Assembly (NCBI GenBank): GCA_030146905.1
Contig: JASLAV010001193.1
Location: 1-7,303, forward strand
Direction: 5' to 3'
Origin: Lentzea sp.
Lineage (GTDB): Bacteria; Actinomycetota; Actinomycetes; Mycobacteriales; Pseudonocardiaceae
DNA length: 7,303 bases
Shown: positions 1-7,303 of the stretch, piece after piece
How positions within the stretch are numbered: position 1 is the first letter of the stretch
Layout: every line of letters starts with the position of its first letter
Position numbers and translations under genes: made by a program
Notes under the pieces: generated by a model
What the model was told of the DNA's origin: nothing
Database searches by the model: none
Seen by the model: the letters and a program-made list of their open reading frames with translations, nothing else

Positions 1-23
1 CTCAAGAACGGCACTGGCGAACG

Positions 24-57
24 AAAAGCCCTGACCAACCACCGGGTCGGCCAGGGC
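24..57 (-). terminator. Intrinsic terminator of tRNA-Pro
   Basis: Read on the minus strand, bases 57 to 28 fold into a 13-bp stem (GCCCTGGCCGACC paired with GGTTGGTCAGGGC, two G-T wobbles) with a 4-base CGGT loop. It is followed at once by TTTT (27-24). It starts 5 bases past the 3' end of the tRNA-Pro gene, the expected place for a Rho-independent terminator. The wobble pairs become A/C mismatches on the plus strand, so the hairpin favours minus-strand RNA. Confidence 0.85.
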
Positions 58-62
58 AACCG

Positions 63-136
63 TCGGGGCGACAGGATTTGAACCTGCGACCCCCCGCTCC
101 CAAAGCGGGTGCGCTACCAAACTGCGCCACGCCCCG
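63..136 (-). tRNA. tRNA-Pro (anticodon UGG)
   Basis: On the minus strand the sequence forms a 74-nt cloverleaf. The acceptor arms are CGGGGCG (136-130) and CGCCCCG (70-64), with discriminator A at 63. The D arm begins GCGCAG. The anticodon stem is CCCGC/GCGGG around loop TTTGGGA, giving anticodon TGG, which reads CCA proline codons. The T arm is GCAGG-TTCAAAT-CCTGT, with one non-Watson-Crick pair. CCA is not encoded. It is chromosomal, divergent from the neighbouring tRNA-Gly, and has its own terminator. pSAM2 uses a tRNA-Pro as attachment site, but here the integrase is next to tRNA-Gly, so this gene is probably only a bystander. Confidence 0.97.
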
Positions 137-144
137 GTCCACCC

Positions 145-172
145 CAGCCTATCGCGACCGGCTAAGCTGACC
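145..172 (-). promoter_or_regulatory. Candidate promoter of tRNA-Pro
   Basis: On the minus strand a TAGGCT hexamer (150-145) lies 8 bases upstream of the tRNA-Pro 5' end, where a -10 box for a transcript starting near 138 would sit. A TGGTCA hexamer (172-167) lies 16 bases further up and matches TTGACA at four of six positions. The 61-bp gap between the two divergent tRNA genes must hold both promoters. For tRNA-Gly I see only a weak candidate, CTGACC at 167-172 with TAGGCG at 188-193. This call rests on consensus and position alone. Confidence 0.4.
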
Positions 173-197
173 ACGCGCCCACCCCGGTAGGCGCGAT

Positions 198-268
198 GCG
201 GGTGTAGCTCAATGGTAGAGCCCCAGCCTTCCAAGCTGGTCATGCGGGTTCGATTCCCGTCACCCGCT
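198..268 (+). tRNA. tRNA-Gly (anticodon UCC), likely attB
   Basis: A 71-nt cloverleaf: acceptor GCGGGTG (198-204) pairs with CACCCGC (261-267), discriminator T at 268. The D arm contains AGCTCAATGGTAGAGC. The anticodon stem is CCAGC/GCTGG around loop CTTCCAA, giving anticodon TCC, which reads GGA glycine codons. The T arm is GCGGG-TTCGATT-CCCGT. CCA is not encoded. Its 3' end points straight at the integrase gene, which converges on it and ends 70 bp away. This is the standard geometry for tyrosine integrases that recombine within the 3' half of a tRNA gene and restore it on integration. The tRNA looks intact, as expected at the att end that keeps the functional copy. Confidence 0.97.
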
Positions 269-290
269 CTCGACATCCCCTTGCAGGTCA
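230..290. other. Predicted attL (element/chromosome junction)
   Basis: AICE integrases usually recombine at an identity segment running from the anticodon or T arm to the 3' end of a tRNA gene, with int just inside the element. The tRNA-Gly 3' half (about 230-268) and the adjacent short spacer fit that arrangement. The boundary is approximate because the defining evidence, a second copy of the tRNA 3' end at attR, is not in this window. I looked for the T-arm and acceptor sequence elsewhere in the window and did not find it. Confidence 0.5.
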
Positions 291-326
291 ACAGCGGTGC
301 CACCCATCTCAGGGCAGCACCGCTGT
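291..326 (-). terminator. Terminator-like hairpin downstream of int
   Basis: A perfect 10-bp inverted repeat, ACAGCGGTGC (291-300) and GCACCGCTGT (317-326), lies between int and tRNA-Gly. In minus-strand RNA five inner pairs, two of them G-U, extend it to a 15-bp stem with a 6-base loop. In plus-strand RNA those two wobbles become A/C clashes. The asymmetry suggests it serves the int transcript, whose stop is 13 bp upstream. There is only a two-base T run after it, so termination would be of the U-poor kind. A protein-binding arm of the att site is the main alternative. Confidence 0.55.
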
Positions 327-338
327 CGCGTCTCTTGA

Positions 339-1475
339 TCACGTCGTGCGATTGGCGTGCGATTGGCTGGCCTTCACCCGCTCGCTGAGCTTGTCCGCGA
401 TCTCCCTGTCCCGCTCGCTGGTCGCGTGCTGGTAGATGAGCGCCGCCCGCATGCTCCCGTGCCCCATCCGGTGCATCAGCTCCCGCGTGCTGGCTCCCGC
501 TGCCGCTGCCAGGTTGTTGCCCGTGTGGCGCAGGTCGTGGAAGTGGAAGCCCTTCGGGAGCCCGACCTTGGCCACCGTCTTGATCCACTTCACGGACCGG
601 TGCCAGTTACCCCGCTTGAGCGCCGCGCCCTTCTCCCCGGTGAAGATCAGCTCCTCCGGACCGGCCTTGACGAACGCCATCAGGTGACGTCGGAAGTCGT
701 CCACGAGGATCTCCGGCATGGCGACCGTCCGGAAGCCCGCCGCTGACTTCGGTGGGCCTTCCACGAGCTGGCCCGAGTTGAGCTGGGCCAGCCTCCGAGG
801 CACCCGAACCGATGGCGCGTCCAGGTCGACGTCACACCTTCGAAGGGCGATCAGCTCACCCCACCGCAGACCTGTGAGGGCAGCGGCCAGGATCAGCACC
901 CGAAAGCGGGGCGGCACGGTCTCCGACAGGGTGAAGACCTGCTCGACGGTCGCCACGGGCCGTTCCGGAGCCTTCTCCTGGTCCGCTCCCTTGATGCGGC
1001 ACGGGTTCCGCTTGATGCGGTTGTCGTCCAGGGCGGTGTTCATGATCGCTCGAAGCAGCCGGTACGCCTTGGCGGTCGTGGTGTCCGAACGGCCGTTGTC
1101 GAGCAGGTGTCGTCGCCAGGTCCGCACGGTCTCCGTGGTGATCGAGTTGAGCAGCTTCTCACCGAGGAACGGCACGACGTGAAGCCGGAACTGCCGCTCG
1201 TACTCCTCGCGGGTGCGGACGCCGAGCTGCCGTTCCTTGATCCACCGCTCCCCGTACTCCTTGAGCGCGACCTTGCCGAGCAGCGGATCAACCCACTCGC
1301 CACGGAGGAGATCAGCCTCGACCGTGGACAGCCACGCGTTGGCGTCGGACTTGGTCGGGAACGTCTCCGGCGCGTTCCGACGAAGGCCGTCAGGACCGAG
1401 GTAGCTCGCTTGGTGCCGACCGGACGGCAGCTTGCGAACGTGGCCGAACTGGCGGTGGTTCTTCTTGTTCGCCAT
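339..1475 (-). CDS. int: Site-specific tyrosine integrase
   Basis: A 378-residue tyrosine recombinase that would catalyse integration of the element into, and with Xis excision from, the tRNA-Gly site. The N-terminal part (about 1-65) resembles an arm-binding domain, with a QASYLGPDG-type beta segment. A SAM-like core-binding domain follows (about 68-160), then the catalytic domain (about 175-360). Catalytic residues are visible: R204 in TGLRWGEL, a candidate K243 in PPKSAAGFRT, H313 and R316 in FHDLRHT, H339 in MGHG and nucleophile Y348 in IYQHA. The length is normal for AICE integrases. The ATG at 1475 is chosen because it overlaps the xis stop as TGATG and has GGAGGG seven bases upstream; the frame stays open to 1757 but that stretch is the shadow of xis and rep. 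The last codons contain a tandem 11-bp repeat. Xis/Int coupling suggests co-production. Confidence 0.95.
   Translation of the reverse strand: MANKKNHRQFGHVRKLPSGRHQASYLGPDGLRRNAPETFPTKSDANAWLSTVEADLLRGEWVDPLLGKVALKEYGERWIKERQLGVRTREEYERQFRLHVVPFLGEKLLNSITTETVRTWRRHLLDNGRSDTTTAKAYRLLRAIMNTALDDNRIKRNPCRIKGADQEKAPERPVATVEQVFTLSETVPPRFRVLILAAALTGLRWGELIALRRCDVDLDAPSVRVPRRLAQLNSGQLVEGPPKSAAGFRTVAMPEILVDDFRRHLMAFVKAGPEELIFTGEKGAALKRGNWHRSVKWIKTVAKVGLPKGFHFHDLRHTGNNLAAAAGASTRELMHRMGHGSMRAALIYQHATSERDREIADKLSERVKASQSHANRTT
345..366. repeat. Two tandem copies of an 11-bp repeat at the int 3' end
   Basis: CGTGCGATTGG occurs twice head to tail (345-355 and 356-366) with no mismatch, inside the last codons of int and about 80-100 bp from the tRNA-Gly 3' end. 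Each copy spans about one helical turn. Integrase arm-type sites and Xis sites are short direct repeats near the core, so these are candidate arm sites. A simple slippage duplication that lengthened the Int tail is the alternative. Confidence 0.6.
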
Positions 1476-1663
1476 CAGGCAGCCCTCCAGACCGGCTCGA
1501 CCCGACCGGCGTTGATGAACTCGTCCACGTCGGCCCGCTTGAGCCGGACGTGCCGCCCGAGGTGGTGGAACGCGATCCGGCGCTCTGCGATGAGGCGACG
1601 GACGAAGCGGACGGTCGTGTTCATGTAGTCCGCCGCTTCCTGAACCGTGAAGTGCTCCTTCAT
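1475..1663 (-). CDS. xis: Excisionase, MerR-like winged-helix DNA-binding protein
   Basis: A 62-residue protein of the helix-turn-helix excisionase family (HTH_17/MerR-like fold). These proteins bend att DNA and tilt Int toward excision. The family pattern is clear: FTVQEAADYMNTTVRFVRRLI (residues 5-25) is the helix-turn-helix, IAFHHLGRHVRLKRADVDEFI is the wing and the last helix. The ATG at 1663 is preferred because GGGGAG lies six bases upstream. An in-frame ATG at 1678, five codons earlier, directly follows the rep stop (TAAATG) but lacks a Shine-Dalgarno sequence. The stop overlaps the int start by one base (TGATG), giving the rep-xis-int order known from pSAM2, where the three genes are transcribed together. 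Confidence 0.93.
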   Translation of the reverse strand: MKEHFTVQEAADYMNTTVRFVRRLIAERRIAFHHLGRHVRLKRADVDEFINAGRVEPVWRAA

Positions 1664-1678
1664 CGTCTTCTCCCCCAT

Positions 1679-3282
1679 TTACGCAGCTTGAGACGTTGCC
1701 GAACGGATTGGCGAACTGGCCGAGGCGAGCAGGGCCGCCGTGTACTCGGCCTTCCATCGACGCCGCTCCGCGACCGCCCGCAGCAGCAGGTGAGGTCTTG
1801 GGGGCACGTTCGGGTCACCGGGCTGCACGTTGTTCCAGACGACCCGTTTTGGCTGGTCGTCCCCGGTGATCCCCACGTCGGCAAGCAGTTGCCGAACGAA
1901 TTCCTTGCGGTCGTGCTTGTGGTCGGCCAGCGACTTCCCGGACCACTTCCGCGACACCAGCACCCGCCGACCGGCGACGCCGAGCGTTGAGCGCTTGTGG
2001 GCCTTGCCCTTGCACTTGTCCGGCTCCATCGACAGTCGAGCGCCCTTCGGCTGGACCCCGTAGAGCAGCCAGACGGGGCACTGCGGCGAGCAAGGCGTGA
2101 CGGCCAGCTCCGCGCACAGCCGTTCGGCGTGGTCCTCCTGGCGGCTCGTCTGGGCGTCGAAGCACTCACCGATGCTCTTGGTCAGGTACTTCGTCAGATA
2201 GCCGATGTGCCGACCGGCCTCTTCGGTGCCGCCGAGGATGCCCTTGGAGTGCACCTGCACCCCGAACCGCGCCACGTGCGCCGGGCGCTCAACCTGGTCG
2301 AGAGCTTCATCCCAGGTCGGTAGCGGTTCACGCGTGGTCGGGTCAACGAACCCCTTCGCCCGCGGGTCCCACACCGGCCGGTTGTCGCCGCTGTACTTGA
2401 TCTCGTCGTGATTGGGCCACCAGACCTGGTGGTAGGTGGCCTCCGCGACCGCTCGCAGCTCCGCCCGCGAGATCGAACCCCGGATAGCGGCGTGCCAGTG
2501 CGGCGCCAGTCGCCGCTGAGGCTCGACGGTCGAGAAGTACTGCACATCCCAGCCGACGCAGCGCCGCAGGTTCTGCACGAACCGATCGAGCAGCGCAGCG
2601 AAGTGCACCGCATCCGAGCCGCACGCCGGTAGTCATACGAGACCGGATCGACCGGAGTGCCGTCCGACCGCACCTTGCCGTAGCTGTCCAGCGTCAGCGT
2701 GAGGAAGGTCGAGGGCTGGTACTTGCCGCCGAAGACCCGTCCGACCGTGCGCTTGGTGATCGGCCGCCGAGGCAGGTTCGGCGCGTCCTGCCGCCGCCTG
2801 GTCGACCGCTTCCGCACCGCCCGAGGCCGAGCCTCCAGAGCTGGGAGCGAACCGCGGACTCCGAGCTGCCGCAGCTCCGCATCAACCTCGGTGATCTCTT
2901 CCCGAACCTCCTCAGCACCGATCTCGTCGCCCTCCTCGACGGCCTGCCGGTACGCCTTCACCAGGTCGGCCCGGTAGGCGGTCAGCGCCCGCTGATCGTC
3001 ACTGGGAGAGTCCGGGGTGAAGTCGGGTTCCTCGGTCAGGTGCCATCCCTCGCGGCACTGCGCCATCCGTAGCCGCCGGTTCTTCTCCGCACAGGTGGGG
3101 CACACACTCGCCACGGTTGACCCGCACGCCACGGGCACGATCTCGACCCGTCCGGTGTCCAGGTCGATCCGCTCCTTGGCCAGCGGTCGGACGCAGACGC
3201 CGTGCTCTTCAGCCACGGCCCGAGCCACGTCCAGCGCCGCCGGCTGCTTCATCCGGTCGGCACGAGTTAGGTACTCGCTCAC
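1679..3282 (-). pseudogene. repSA: RepSA-type rolling-circle replication initiator, frameshifted
   Basis: Two overlapping frames together make one RepSA-like initiator of about 534 residues. The first frame (3282 to 2614, 223 conserved residues) carries a Cys cluster (C53, C61, C64, C76), a charged region and FLTLTL (193-198), which matches HUH motif 1. The second frame (about 2613 to 1679) carries APHWHAAI, the His-x-His of motif 2, and GYLTKYLTKS, the probable catalytic tyrosine motif 3. The break is after codon CGG at 2616-2614: CGGATGCGG is read where CGGGATGCGG would continue the protein, so one G is missing. Read as is, translation ends at 2194 with a foreign tail. There is no slippery heptamer, so programmed frameshifting is unlikely. 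The GTG start at 3282 overlaps the ftsK stop (GTGA) and has GGGGGAGG upstream. A sequencing error in the short G run remains possible. Confidence 0.9.
2610..2620 (-). other. Frameshift site in repSA (one missing G)
   Basis: Upstream the frame reads SYDYRRAAR and downstream the family-like continuation is VHFAALLDRF. The two join perfectly if a single G is added to the GG at 2615-2614, giving an intervening Asp-Ala. No other base change is needed and both sides remain open over long distances without further stops. This fits a recent mutation or a base-call error. Confidence 0.85.
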
Positions 3283-4748
3283 GCCGCAACCTCCCCCGAG
3301 CCGTCCGACCGAGTCGGGAAGTCGTGCACCTTCGCATCGGCCAGGAACACGCCCAGCTCGACCAGGTCGGCATCGGTGACATGGAAGGCCCGAGCCCGTT
3401 CCGGCTCCCTCTGCCCGTCCTCTTTGACCCAGGCGACACCAGGCGTGTTCTCGCTGATCTCATGTGCCGCCGCGCCCCGCTGACGGACACCGTCACCAAG
3501 CACCATGTCCACCTGCTGCGGCTCGTCCAAGCGCAGCGCCACACGGGTGCTGAACAGGTGCCGGAAGGACACGACCTCCTTACGCGGATCCTGGACCAGG
3601 CCCACGACCGCGTAGCCAGGCGCACGCCCCTGTGAGGTGATCGTCTGGATAGCCCGCACCGCTCGTTCCCGGAGCTGCTTGTCCGGCTGGTAGGCGATCA
3701 GATCCGCCAACTCATCCACCACCAGGACCGTGAACGGCTCCCCCGTCGACCGCGCCCACAATCGCCGCACACCCCGGTACCGCGCCGCCCGCTCCTTGAC
3801 CTCAGCGGCGATTTCCTCAAGCAGCGCAACGGCTTCCGGGCCGTTGTCGTACACGACACGGTCGAAGGCGCCCGGGCACTGCCCGAGTTCCATCCCGCCC
3901 TTCGGGTCGATCCCGACCAACCGCACCAGGCCCGCACGGACGGCCGGGGCGAGCTGCCACACCAGCGACCAGAGCACCGAGCCCTTGCCCGCACCGGGCA
4001 CGCCGACCACGAGCACTTGAGACCCGAGCAGACGCAGCCGCCACGGCCTACCGGTCTCGGTCCGACCGACGACCACCCGCTTGAGGTCCACCTCGGTCGA
4101 GTCCGCCAGCGCGGGCACCGCGAGAGGTCGCAGCAGCGGGTCACAGTGGACGAAGTCCAGCTCGATCACCCGAGGACGCAACACCCGCACCCGACACGAG
4201 CGAGCACCGAACGAGTGCGCCAGGCCGTCCCGGCGCAGCTCCCATACGTCTGGCGACTGTGCGGGCACCATCCGCACCCGGACTCGGTCCCGCCACCCCT
4301 CAGAGCGAACCCGCCGAAGCCTGGGCCGGTACTCGCGCCCACGGTCCTGCTTGGCCAGCTCAGCGAGCCGCATCACCGACCGCCACTTCGGCACGTAAAC
4401 CGTCAACCGCCGCCACTCGGTCACGAGCCGGTACCAGCCGTGGCGCAGGAACGACCGACGATCGAGACCTGCCCAGATGCTCAGGGCCGCGACCAGCGAC
4501 AACAGAGCCAACACCAGCGGCGAGAGCCCGAACCGCCACCAGCACCAGGCCGCCGACAACGGCACCAACGTGACCACCGGATAGCGAACGACGACGAGCA
4601 CCAGGCGCATGGCCCCGACGACCGCCAGCCACACCAGAGCCACCAGTGCCGCGACCCACTTCACCTTGCCGGGAACGAGCACCCACCACGGCACCCGAGG
4701 CCGGACAGCCTCGAACGGAGCCGGGTCGACCCACTTTCCGCCGTTCAT
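3279..4748 (-). CDS. traSA: FtsK/SpoIIIE-type DNA translocase, AICE transfer protein
   Basis: A 489-residue membrane-anchored ATPase that would drive conjugal transfer of double-stranded DNA, like TraSA of pSAM2 and the TraB proteins of Streptomyces plasmids. Two hydrophobic segments near the N terminus (about 31-55 and 58-95, probably three or more helices in all) anchor it in the membrane. The motor domain follows, with Walker A GVPGAGKGS at 249-257, a conserved VGIDPKGGMELG at 278-289, Walker B VLVVDELADL at 341-350 (D345, E346), and QTITSQGRAPGYAVVGLVQDP near 368-388. No clear C-terminal winged-helix (gamma) domain is visible. The ATG at 4748 overlaps the upstream stop (ATGA), and its reading frame upstream of this is the shadow of that gene. 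The stop overlaps the rep start by three bases. The symbol is by family resemblance. Confidence 0.93.
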   Translation of the reverse strand: MNGGKWVDPAPFEAVRPRVPWWVLVPGKVKWVAALVALVWLAVVGAMRLVLVVVRYPVVTLVPLSAAWCWWRFGLSPLVLALLSLVAALSIWAGLDRRSFLRHGWYRLVTEWRRLTVYVPKWRSVMRLAELAKQDRGREYRPRLRRVRSEGWRDRVRVRMVPAQSPDVWELRRDGLAHSFGARSCRVRVLRPRVIELDFVHCDPLLRPLAVPALADSTEVDLKRVVVGRTETGRPWRLRLLGSQVLVVGVPGAGKGSVLWSLVWQLAPAVRAGLVRLVGIDPKGGMELGQCPGAFDRVVYDNGPEAVALLEEIAAEVKERAARYRGVRRLWARSTGEPFTVLVVDELADLIAYQPDKQLRERAVRAIQTITSQGRAPGYAVVGLVQDPRKEVVSFRHLFSTRVALRLDEPQQVDMVLGDGVRQRGAAAHEISENTPGVAWVKEDGQREPERARAFHVTDADLVELGVFLADAKVHDFPTRSDGSGEVAA

Positions 4749-4936
4749 CGCGCACGCCCCACGGGGGCGAAGATCAGCGGCAGCCATCCCAGGCAGCCGC
4801 AGCAAACGAGCTGGTTCGGGGCGTAGACACCGAACCGCTTGCACGCCCCGCAGGGGCGACCGTTGGACAACTTCCACACTGTCGGAGCACCGCGCCGACT
4901 TGACGCGCGCACCCCACGTACCGATAGCCTCGACAT
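4745..4936 (-). CDS. Small zinc-ribbon protein
   Basis: A 63-residue basic protein of unknown function. Two CxxC knuckles, C29-G-A-C32 and C45-C-G-C48, separated by 12 residues, suggest a compact zinc ribbon; the tail WLPLIFAPVGRAR is hydrophobic then basic. It is accepted as real because AAGGGA lies eight bases before its ATG, and its stop overlaps the translocase start as ATGA, so the two should be translationally coupled. It could be a DNA-binding or regulatory partner of the transfer protein, but that is inferred from position only. The start codon is flanked by the arm of an inverted repeat (4937-4944 with 4976-4983) that could modulate initiation. Confidence 0.75.
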   Translation of the reverse strand: MSRLSVRGVRASSRRGAPTVWKLSNGRPCGACKRFGVYAPNQLVCCGCLGWLPLIFAPVGRAR

Positions 4937-4983
4937 GACCGGAATCCCTTGTGTGGTAACGAAAGCACGCGAAAGTTCCGGTC
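4937..4983 (-). promoter_or_regulatory. Inverted repeat enclosing the ribosome binding site of the zinc-ribbon/transfer operon
   Basis: GACCGGAA (4937-4944) and TTCCGGTC (4976-4983) are perfect 8-base inverted repeats 31 bases apart. One arm touches the ATG at 4936 and the loop holds the AAGGGA ribosome binding site. In mRNA this could fold into a stem beside the start codon, or on DNA it could be an operator. The loop also has two copies of CGAAAG (4960-4965 and 4970-4975). Function is inferred. Confidence 0.5.
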
Positions 4984-4994
4984 GGTGTGTCGCC

Positions 4995-5035
4995 GGGAAA
5001 CAGCTTCAGCCCGCCAAGACTCGAACCTGTTTCCC
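4995..5035. repeat. Inverted repeat with perfect 9-bp arms
   Basis: GGGAAACAG (4995-5003) and CTGTTTCCC (5027-5035) are exact reverse complements around a 23-base loop. After one mismatch the pairing continues for three more bases (5005-5007 with 5023-5025). No T tract follows on either strand, so this is not a standard intrinsic terminator for the HTH gene that ends at 5092. An origin hairpin, protein-binding site or RNA structure is possible. Confidence 0.6.
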
Positions 5036-5091
5036 CGCGACCCCACCAACCAGCAATTCAGATCACTTGCCGCACGAGACCGCCCGCACGA

Positions 5092-5670
5092 TCATTCGCT
5101 CGTCTCGACTTCGAACAGGTCTTCGAACTCGAACGGCGCGAGCGCCTTCAACGCCCCACTGATGAACCGCGCACCAGGCCGCAGCTCACCGTCACGCGCA
5201 CGCTTCACCGTGGACCGGTTGAGCCCCATCGCCTTGGCCAGCGCGTAGTCCGAGTGGAACCCCGCCAGCCTCACAGCCTTGGTGAACGCGTCGTCACGAA
5301 GCCTGACCGCGTACCTCGGATCACCGATCCGGTGGCGAACGCGAGCCAGCCGCTCCGTCGTCCCCTCGGGCTCACTTGGCTCGGTCCTCCACCGCTTGCG
5401 CCGAGCGCCTGCATCAGTAGCGAGGCCCTGGGCGATCTTCTCCGCCTTCTCCCGCTGTTGCTCCGCGAGGAACAGCGCCTCCCTCTGCCTCCCACGATCG
5501 GTCTCCGCGACCCGCCGGTACACCTCGGCCGCCCGCAGGTGGAAGTCCCGCCACTCCACCCGCGCGGCCTCCCGGGAGGGCACCACCTCAAGCAGAGCGT
5601 CATGGGCCTGCCGAAGCGTCACCGCCGACTGCACGGTCGACCACAACTCCTCCAGCGACGTCACTCCCAC
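5092..5670 (-). CDS. Helix-turn-helix protein with helical N-terminal region
   Basis: A 192-residue protein, probably a DNA-binding regulator of the element. Residues about 35-90 are rich in Glu, Arg, Ala and Gln and should be helical, possibly coiled coil (REAARVEWRDFHLRAAEVYRR). Residues 100-125 are a polar linker. The C-terminal part (about 127-185) reads as a Cro/CI-like helix-turn-helix: FHSDYALAKAMGLNRSTVKRARDG followed by a helix FISGALKALAPF. The start is uncertain: GTG at 5670 has GAGGGGG only four bases upstream, while GTG at 5664 forms a GTGA overlap with the preceding stop. Either way translation is coupled to the upstream gene. Its target is unknown; the inverted repeats just downstream are candidates. 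The HTH is clear, the function is not. Confidence 0.8.
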   Translation of the reverse strand: MGVTSLEELWSTVQSAVTLRQAHDALLEVVPSREAARVEWRDFHLRAAEVYRRVAETDRGRQREALFLAEQQREKAEKIAQGLATDAGARRKRWRTEPSEPEGTTERLARVRHRIGDPRYAVRLRDDAFTKAVRLAGFHSDYALAKAMGLNRSTVKRARDGELRPGARFISGALKALAPFEFEDLFEVETSE

Positions 5671-5867
5671 TCGTCCCCCTCGACGCCCAGGGCAACGCCT
5701 CCGTCCTGCAACGCCGAGCGCAGCCGGTTGATCGAGTCCTTCTCGACCACCAGGACGACCGGGAACGCCTTGCCGAAGCGAATCTCCACCCGATCGGCGA
5801 ACGTCTGCGGGTAAGCCCGGATGGGCAGGTCATCGGTCACGTGAAGTCGAACCATGGCATTGCTCAT
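5661..5867 (-). CDS. Small conserved-looking hypothetical protein
   Basis: A 68-residue protein that I do not recognise. It starts with alternating hydrophobic stretches (MVRLHVTDDLPIRAY, RVEIRFGKAFPVVLVV) suggesting a small beta sheet, followed by a helix (KDSINRLRSALQDG) and an acidic end (VEGDEWE). No signal peptide, Cys pairs or transmembrane helix is seen. It is accepted because it sits in a tight gene string: its ATG at 5867 is three bases after the pra-like stop, and its own stop overlaps the next start. A second in-frame ATG at codon 5 (5855) is possible. Its location in a regulatory cluster suggests an accessory or regulatory role, which is inference only. Confidence 0.68.
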   Translation of the reverse strand: MSNAMVRLHVTDDLPIRAYPQTFADRVEIRFGKAFPVVLVVEKDSINRLRSALQDGGVALGVEGDEWE

Positions 5868-5870
5868 CGG

Positions 5871-6323
5871 TCACGCCGCCTTGGCAGCGGACTTGACGAC
5901 GACCGGCTTCATGCCCGAGGCCCGCAGGCTGTACCCGAGCTTCGCCCGGCACCTGTGCCGCTCACCGCCGTGGCTGCCCCGGCACGCCTTGTCGTCAATC
6001 CAGGGCGTCACCGTCAGCCCTTCGAAGACCACCGGCCGCACGTCCGTCCCCGGAATCGCCTCCGGTGGGACCGGCTGGTGCGGGGCCGCGATCTTCACCG
6101 TGACCACGGCGTCCGTCTTGCGCTCCGCCGCCTGGTCGATCACCAGGACCGACCACACCAACAGCCCGGTTTCCTTGTCCGTCTCCTGCTGGACCGGCAA
6201 CCCCTTCGCCCGCTCCTCGGCCGACTGGAACTTGAGCACCGGCTCGACACCCATCACCAGCGCGCCACGGGGAAAGACGAAGTCGTGCGTCGCCGGGAGC
6301 CTGCTCCCACCACTGATCGCCAC
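5871..6323 (-). CDS. pra: Pra-like activator of replication, integration and excision
   Basis: A 150-residue protein resembling the pSAM2 Pra family, which activates transcription of rep, xis and int. I recognise the pattern by family memory: ISGGSRLPATHDFVFPRG at the N terminus, LPVQQETDKETGLLVWSVLVID in the middle, then VTVKIAAPHQPVPPEAIPGT and FEGLTVTPWIDD, and the closing YSLRASGM. The region after WIDD holds CRGSHGGERHRC (C114, H118, H123, C125), a possible metal-binding insertion. The GTG at 6323 is chosen because AGGAG lies seven bases upstream and because the family starts there; the frame is open to 6593 but that part is antisense to the divergent regulator. It heads the minus-strand gene string and shares the 160-bp regulatory region with the plus-strand regulator. 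Confidence 0.85.
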   Translation of the reverse strand: MAISGGSRLPATHDFVFPRGALVMGVEPVLKFQSAEERAKGLPVQQETDKETGLLVWSVLVIDQAAERKTDAVVTVKIAAPHQPVPPEAIPGTDVRPVVFEGLTVTPWIDDKACRGSHGGERHRCRAKLGYSLRASGMKPVVVKSAAKAA

Positions 6324-6349
6324 AGCCGATCTCCTGTCATCAGCGTCGA

Positions 6350-6366
6350 CTGGACCCTTGGTCCAG
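6350..6366. repeat. Palindrome in the pra leader
   Basis: CTGGACC (6350-6356) and GGTCCAG (6360-6366) form a perfect 7-bp inverted repeat with a 3-base spacer. It sits about 14 bases upstream of the AGGAG ribosome binding site of the pra-like gene on the minus strand. It could be an operator half-site pair or a small leader hairpin. Confidence 0.55.
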
Positions 6367-6431
6367 CACCTTGACACCAACCACTTTCGGCTGATCGGCA
6401 GGACGCAAGCACCGCATAGCAGAACTTCTAA

Positions 6432-6459
6432 GGACGTCTCTGCTAGCTTGAAGACGTCC
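6432..6459 (+). promoter_or_regulatory. Candidate operator and -10 element of the divergent regulator
   Basis: GGACGTCT (6432-6439) and AGACGTCC (6452-6459) are a perfect 8-bp inverted repeat. Each arm contains the palindrome GACGTC, and the two palindromes are 20 bp apart, about two helical turns, so they lie on one DNA face. Between them TGCTAGCTT (6441-6449) matches an extended -10 (TGnTAnnnT) for transcription toward the regulator at 6484. No good -35 is seen. A repressor bound to both boxes would cover the promoter, so autorepression, and perhaps control of pra, is likely but inferred. Confidence 0.6.
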
Positions 6460-6483
6460 CAAGTCGTCACCACGGGGGTACAC

Positions 6484-7227
6484 ATGGCCAACGAACGCCT
6501 ACGAGAAGCCCTGCTACGCAATGGCTTGGACCTCGACCACGTCGCCCGAGCCACGAGCGTCGACCCCAAGACCGTCGAACGCTGGATCACCAAGGGCCGA
6601 GTCCCCTACCCCCGCCACCGCCACACCATCGCTTCGATGGTCCGCGAGACCGAGAACTACCTCTGGCCGGACGCCGTAGCCGCGGACCGCAAGGCCGAGA
6701 TCGCCGAGTCCGAGGTGGTCAAGGTCTACCCCCACCGCAACAACATCCCCGCGGACCTCTGGGACCGACTCCTCAACGACTCCACCAAGCACATCGAAGT
6801 GCTATCCCTTGCCGCCCTCTTTCTGGTCGAACGCCCGACCTTCGCCAAGGAGCTGCGCCTCAAGGCCGAACAGGGCGCCAGAATCCGCCTCCTGTTCGGC
6901 GACCCCGCAGGCCGCGAAGCCGCCCGCCGCAGCGAGGAAGAGCAACTAGGCAAGGGCACCGTCGCCGCCCGCATCCGCAACGCCCTAGCCTTCGTCCGCC
7001 CACTGGTCGACGTCCCCGGCATCGAGGTCCGCCTCCACAAGACGACCCTCTACAACTCCGTCTTCCGCTTCGACGACGAGATGATCGTCAACACCCACGT
7101 CTTCGGCTTCCCCGGAGCCCACGCCCCAGCCCTCCACCTACGCCGCCTCTCCGCCGGCGACCTCTTCGAGACCTACTCCGAAAGCCTGGAGACCGTCTGG
7201 GCCAACGCGAAGCGCGCCACCTTCTGA
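6484..7227 (+). CDS. XRE-type regulator with DUF5919-like C-terminal domain
   Basis: A 247-residue two-domain regulator. Residues 5-55 form a helix-turn-helix (LREALLRNGLDLDHVARATSVDPKTVERWITKGRVP). Residues about 88-245 form a larger domain with IEVLSLAALFLVE, ARIRLLFGDP, RIRNALAFVRPL, IEVRLHKTTLYNSVFRFDDEMIVNTHVFG and ETYSESLETVWA. This matches my memory of the DUF5919 domain, which looks like a degenerate phospholipase-D fold: the HxK-like LHKTTLYNSVFRFDD is present as a single copy, so catalysis is doubtful and a sensing role more likely. The ATG at 6484 is chosen for GGGGG five bases upstream; the frame is open from 5854 but the earlier part is antisense to pra. It would fill the role of the element's repressor beside pra, as KorSA does in pSAM2, though it is a different protein family. 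Confidence 0.85.
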   Translation: MANERLREALLRNGLDLDHVARATSVDPKTVERWITKGRVPYPRHRHTIASMVRETENYLWPDAVAADRKAEIAESEVVKVYPHRNNIPADLWDRLLNDSTKHIEVLSLAALFLVERPTFAKELRLKAEQGARIRLLFGDPAGREAARRSEEEQLGKGTVAARIRNALAFVRPLVDVPGIEVRLHKTTLYNSVFRFDDEMIVNTHVFGFPGAHAPALHLRRLSAGDLFETYSESLETVWANAKRATF

Positions 7228-7239
7228 CAAGGTCGAACC

Positions 7240-7303
7240 ATGCCCCGGACCGACTACCTCAACGACCCCAACGCCCCGAAGCCGAACGGCATCCGGGTAG
7301 CCG
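7240..7303 (+). CDS. Start of a Nudix-like hydrolase gene (cut by window end)
   Basis: Twenty-one codons are visible: MPRTDYLNDPNAPKPNGIRVA, running off the window. The ATG follows AAGG by seven bases and lies 12 bases after the regulator's stop, so the two are probably co-transcribed. The N-terminal pattern RTDYxxDPNAPKxN is one I associate with Nudix proteins encoded beside regulators on AICEs; the Nudix box itself would lie outside. In pSAM2 the immunity protein Pif carries a Nudix motif, so a similar role is conceivable. The identification rests on a short N terminus. Confidence 0.6.
   Translation, partial: MPRTDYLNDPNAPKPNGIRVA

Follow-up and report, generated by a model that had tools for sequence, protein, structure and literature searches.

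The window analysed here is one whole contig of 7,303 nucleotides from a Lentzea sp. assembly, and it carries, inserted at a tRNA-Gly gene, a pSAM2-like actinomycete integrative and conjugative element (AICE) from a Saccharothrix-type actinomycete (Table 1). The frames of int, xis and tra are open and have Pfam matches, the stop of tra overlaps the start of rep in GTGA, and the stop of xis overlaps the ATG of int in TGATG (a position read by hand). The element shares with pSAM2, the AICE of Streptomyces ambofaciens, a protein of the RepSA family, the gene order tra-rep-xis-int, a tyrosine integrase and integration at the 3' end of a tRNA gene. It departs from pSAM2 in that its initiator is split by a frame change and in that a DUF5919 gene lies on the regulator side, where the related locus L111 has NUDIX and HD hydrolase genes; no GntR (KorSA-type) match was obtained among the ten ORFs scanned. 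The region of L111 beyond the stretch covered by the window holds these NUDIX and HD hydrolase genes together with pentapeptide-repeat genes. With the DUF5919 gene of the window, the NUDIX and HD genes resemble the mdp-nud-xre cluster that PMC3218068 describes for other AICEs.

Table 1. Features of the window, numbered from its first base
Feature	Position	Strand	Assignment and remarks
tRNA-Gly(TCC)	198-269	+	att core common to five relatives at 228-269
int, tyrosine recombinase	339-1475	-	PF00589 (scanned as 339-1484)
xis, excisionase	1475-1678	-	HTH_17 / TIGR01764, E 6.2e-18
RepSA C-terminal ORF	1679-2608	-	309 aa; PF20199 positions 171-438, E 2.8e-66; HWH and YLTKYLTK
RepSA N-terminal ORF	2194-3282	-	362 aa; PF20199 positions 2-169, E 3.6e-30; RepSA-like at residues 1-223
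RepSA frame-change junction	2605-2625	-	lacks one base at ~2613 relative to L001 and L002
tra, FtsK/SpoIIIE-type DNA translocase	3279-4748	-	PF01580, E 4.8e-10
Candidate double-strand origin hairpin	4977-5056	-	covarying, conserved
AMED_5909 family gene, no assigned function	5092-5670	-	NF041510
DUF5919 gene	6484-7227	+	36.0 bits, over cut-off; HTH match weak, below cut-off

All five relatives from which a whole element was fetched are bounded by direct att repeats of 42-49 bp, with 10.2-11.2 kb between them. Only one copy of the repeat was found within the window, and the contig ends inside the element; the span of the relatives thus places a further 3-4 kb and the second att beyond the contig. 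The statement of the first-pass annotation that the rest of the element looks intact consequently holds for the 7.3 kb of the contig, but not for the element as a whole. Ahead of the att copy in the window come a tRNA-Pro gene and the full 5' part of the tRNA-Gly gene, which indicates the integrated form. In searches of plasmid and phage sequences, all matches were fragments located inside the two tRNA genes or at the ends of these, and the 28-mer spanning the RepSA junction had no match in viral_contigs, where no relative was found.

The RepSA gene is represented by two ORFs. In the Pfam scan, the two segments of the PF20199 model (438 positions) are neighbours in model coordinates and lie in different frames, and the window holds no full-length single-frame match. 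After residue 223, the N-terminal ORF continues as a tail in an alternate frame, about 138 residues long, up to the stop at 2194; the first possible start of the C-terminal ORF is a GTG at 2608. The three rolling-circle motifs are all present, in the order seen in L001, but they are shared out over the two ORFs, with motif 1 (FLTLTL) in the N-terminal ORF and the HWH and YLTKYLTK motifs in the C-terminal one. Only positions 18-76 of the 99-position model for a Rep-associated domain (PF23343) are matched in the C-terminal ORF, as opposed to positions 3-97 in the RepSA gene of L018, which is uninterrupted in this part, and this difference places the break inside the PF23343 domain. The cut falls within the catalytic domain of the initiator and separates motif 1 from the motifs of the metal site and the tyrosine. 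Both the Pfam segments and the motif positions bear out the first-pass claim that RepSA is divided after motif 1 and ahead of motifs 2 and 3; the interval given for the break was also correct, one base being missing there with respect to L001 and L002. As far as the contig shows, the element is a damaged AICE: it has no intact initiator of the RepSA, RepAM or Prim-Pol type, and no initiator other than RepSA was matched among the ten scanned ORFs. A structural placement of the break comes from an AlphaFold2 model of the L001 protein (30 of the 80 loci described below in the alignment), which is poor (mean pLDDT 57.1, pTM 0.31) and at this low confidence puts residue 223 within a helix spanning 218-243, flanked by one strand (192-197) on one side and two others (249-254 and 262-267) on the other; a sequence search of solved structures returned no useful relative (best E 0.75).

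The junction was compared with 80 genome loci, kept out of 88. The nearest genomes are those of Saccharothrix, and the Saccharothrix carnea locus, L001, is 98% identical in the C-terminal part of RepSA and aligns over positions 23-7303 of the window with 93% DNA identity. The N- and C-terminal parts lie in one frame, and the peptide reads through the junction, in 80 of 80 loci, which establishes homology on both sides of the break beyond chance. A split common to related elements had been named in the first-pass annotation, if accompanied by evidence of a functional frameshift product, as one observation that would speak against a lesion, and not one of the 80 relatives has it; a programmed frameshift or a conserved split is rejected on the same count.

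Damage to RepSA at other residues is found in five of these loci, as frame changes in L018, L057 and L060, a stop in L065 and several frames in L074. The affected loci belong to Lentzea, Pseudonocardia and one Pseudonocardiaceae MAG. An integrase match above cut-off is kept in L057, L060 and L065; L018 keeps its tra and xis matches together with a weak integrase match (25.4 bits against a cut-off of 27.1), and in L074 the integrase match falls within a 223-aa ORF that adjoins a DUF520 gene. PF20199 was also searched in the genus to which S. carnea, the source of L001, belongs, and 24 of the 25 genomes covered gave 74 match rows. By hand count, 66 of these are full length without stops and eight are partial or interrupted; none of the partial rows starts or stops at model positions 169-171, the place of the one TAG not being given. 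Damaged copies are sporadic in related bacteria, so that the break in the window, if real, is an ordinary event of decay. In Saccharothrix sp. S26 (L003:5458-6930), RepSA is a 490-aa open frame whose N-terminus has no match to that of the window; its match to the RepSA model begins only at position 133, as if domains had been exchanged upstream of motif 1.

Sequence change behind the lesion is that of a gene under constraint. In the C-terminal half, dN/dS between the window and its relatives is 0.044-0.149 (11 comparisons), next to 0.034-0.133 among uninterrupted relatives (seven comparisons). Changes found only in the window, relative to seven reference loci, amount to 12 synonymous and one nonsynonymous in the N-terminal half, and to four synonymous and two nonsynonymous in the 309 codons of the C-terminal half. 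This pattern implies that the lesion is either recent or an error, and an old pseudogene is rejected, given that constraint behind the lesion is unrelaxed.

We give somewhat better than an even chance to a recent loss of a single base from the repSA gene of a pSAM2-like AICE at tRNA-Gly, with the catalytic initiator cut and replication and transfer lost. The main competitor is an error of sequencing or assembly, in which RepSA would be whole and the contig would have dropped one base; we regard this as a substantial possibility, albeit short of even, and on balance lean towards a real mutation. The loss of a single base in a short single-base run is a typical sequence error, the contig is only 7,303 bases long and is the only record of the lesion here (its own C-terminal protein, P0121, comes with a longest contig of 7,303), and the undisturbed constraint behind the site fits an error as well as it fits a recent mutation. 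On the other hand, the contig is not generally rich in errors: its sole internal indel with respect to L001 is the shortfall of one base at about 2613, which is also the only frame-breaking one inside a predicted gene. Against L002, the shortfall is accompanied by one 3-base gap inside a gene and by three differences of a single base, two of them intergenic (44 and 195) and one at the outer edge of an ORF (5867). Broken RepSA genes also occur in the genomes of named isolates, such as L018, whose assemblies may themselves contain errors.

Other database proteins bear on the same question. The alternate-frame tail is matched in 14 proteins among the best 120 of 2,127 obtained with the N-terminal ORF, a list biased towards such matches, as the query holds the tail itself; one of the 14 (P0082) is doubtful, its match being out of order. 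The shift points differ in the five proteins read, which adds to the case for error. Judged by eye, P0014 and P0019 change frame a few codons upstream of where the window does, P0018, P0021 and P0013 change frame downstream of that point, and P0008 has no shift. P0013, a metagenomic RepSA, leaves the normal frame for about 77 residues and then resumes it, the pattern expected from two compensating shifts.

It could also be proposed that the split is functional, with GTG 2608 as a true internal start, or with ribosomes that shift frame, and with the two halves acting in trans. Among 82 additional new proteins listed for the C-terminal ORF, five (P0128, P0131, P0134, P0180 and P0182) start at its very first codon, and one of them, P0131, is found on three contigs of up to 12 kb. 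Moreover, 43 loci have valine at the corresponding codon, Val226 (2606-2608, minus strand), and 40 of them encode it by GTG, the largest such share among 19 conserved valine columns (the next being 0.88, in two columns). Nonetheless, the 80 genome relatives need neither an internal start nor a shift; codon 226 is ATC in 36, ATT in one and GTC in three of them; and the match to a ribosome site ahead of GTG 2608 extends over 3 nt, compared with GGAGG at the start of rep. The shift points vary among the other database proteins, and the short entries may be contig ends. We therefore deem a functional split highly improbable. Internal starts within an initiator have a precedent in the A* product of phiX174, and a genuine start at codon 226 would mean that the window, like the metagenomic entries with that first codon, relies on a split or A*-like initiator under which replication is altered instead of abolished; this seems to us less probable still.

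The spacer between tra and the AMED_5909 family gene contains a very stable hairpin with a folding energy of -46.9 kcal/mol for 4980-5050 (z -6.9). A model built from nine sequences matches the window and 10 of the 80 loci (the eight used to build it plus L076 and L077) and has no match in the other 70, some of which are short; at each matching locus the hairpin stands about 1.7-2.0 kb upstream of rep, as reckoned by hand, and in the window this distance is about 1.7 kb. Changes on both sides are seen in 10 of 31 pairs (eight distinct rows), a level reached by none of 500 shuffles, and AGTCTTGGCGGGC is invariant in all nine sequences. The TCTTG core of this stretch resembles nick sites of the pC194 type. 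Both motifs and nick site are used to assign pSAM2 to the pC194 family in PMC3218068. The hairpin is a candidate for the double-strand origin of the AICE. The window still carries it, so that the site on which RepSA acts may have survived although the protein is broken.

If the mutation is real, its effects can be anticipated from the published biology of the group. According to PMC3218068, RepSA nicks the origin, and mutations of initiator or origin abolish the transfer of pSAM2, which lends support to the first-pass expectation that a split initiator entails loss of replication. Neither fragment of RepSA would be able to nick the origin, which would leave an excised circle unable to replicate and put an end to transfer. 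The element would then be passed on as part of the chromosome, unless the protein were supplied by a further RepSA element of the same cell. The repSA-xis-int operon and the KorSA-Pra control are described in PMC8584621, and the first-pass annotation had suggested that the premature stop might reduce coupled translation of xis and int. Our analysis gives this little weight. The likely start of xis is ATG 1663, 15 nt past the rep stop and behind a GGGGGAG ribosome site, and it is common to L001 and L002, whereas the ATG at 1678, after the rep stop, is absent from L001. The spacing between the rep stop and xis varies among the 14 relatives shown, and translation of xis need not hang on that of rep. 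With a ribosome site of its own for xis, excision may persist, and integration would be kept. From the published RepSA and operon biology, a real lesion would thus leave an element that integrates and perhaps excises, but neither replicates autonomously nor spreads.

In the library of papers searched, none joined AICE, rep, pseudogene and frameshift. The state is nonetheless known in kind, since AICE-like elements without rep or tra have been described in PMC3218068 as remnants or mobilizable elements. Together with the five relatives interrupted elsewhere in RepSA, this tempers the view of the first-pass annotation that an element so locked into the chromosome would be an informative natural state, as the state is not rare. 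PMC3218068 presents Fean1457, Fcci0407, Fcci1144 and Feul5809 of Frankia as integrated elements that have lost a core function, in some cases replication, and to that extent the element of the window is alike. Unlike those elements, it has an almost complete rep gene disrupted by a single base, which points to a much younger event.

The more reusable result of this work is the hairpin with a covarying stem that lies upstream of both rep and tra, which offers a testable origin candidate for this group of AICEs. The lesion, if real, would make the element a very young rep-defective AICE in which the remaining module within the contig is open. By hand count, at least two full-length RepSA matches are present in 20 of the 25 genomes surveyed in the genus of S. 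carnea. Such an element would be useful for asking whether defective copies survive as passengers or whether sibling RepSA elements rescue them.
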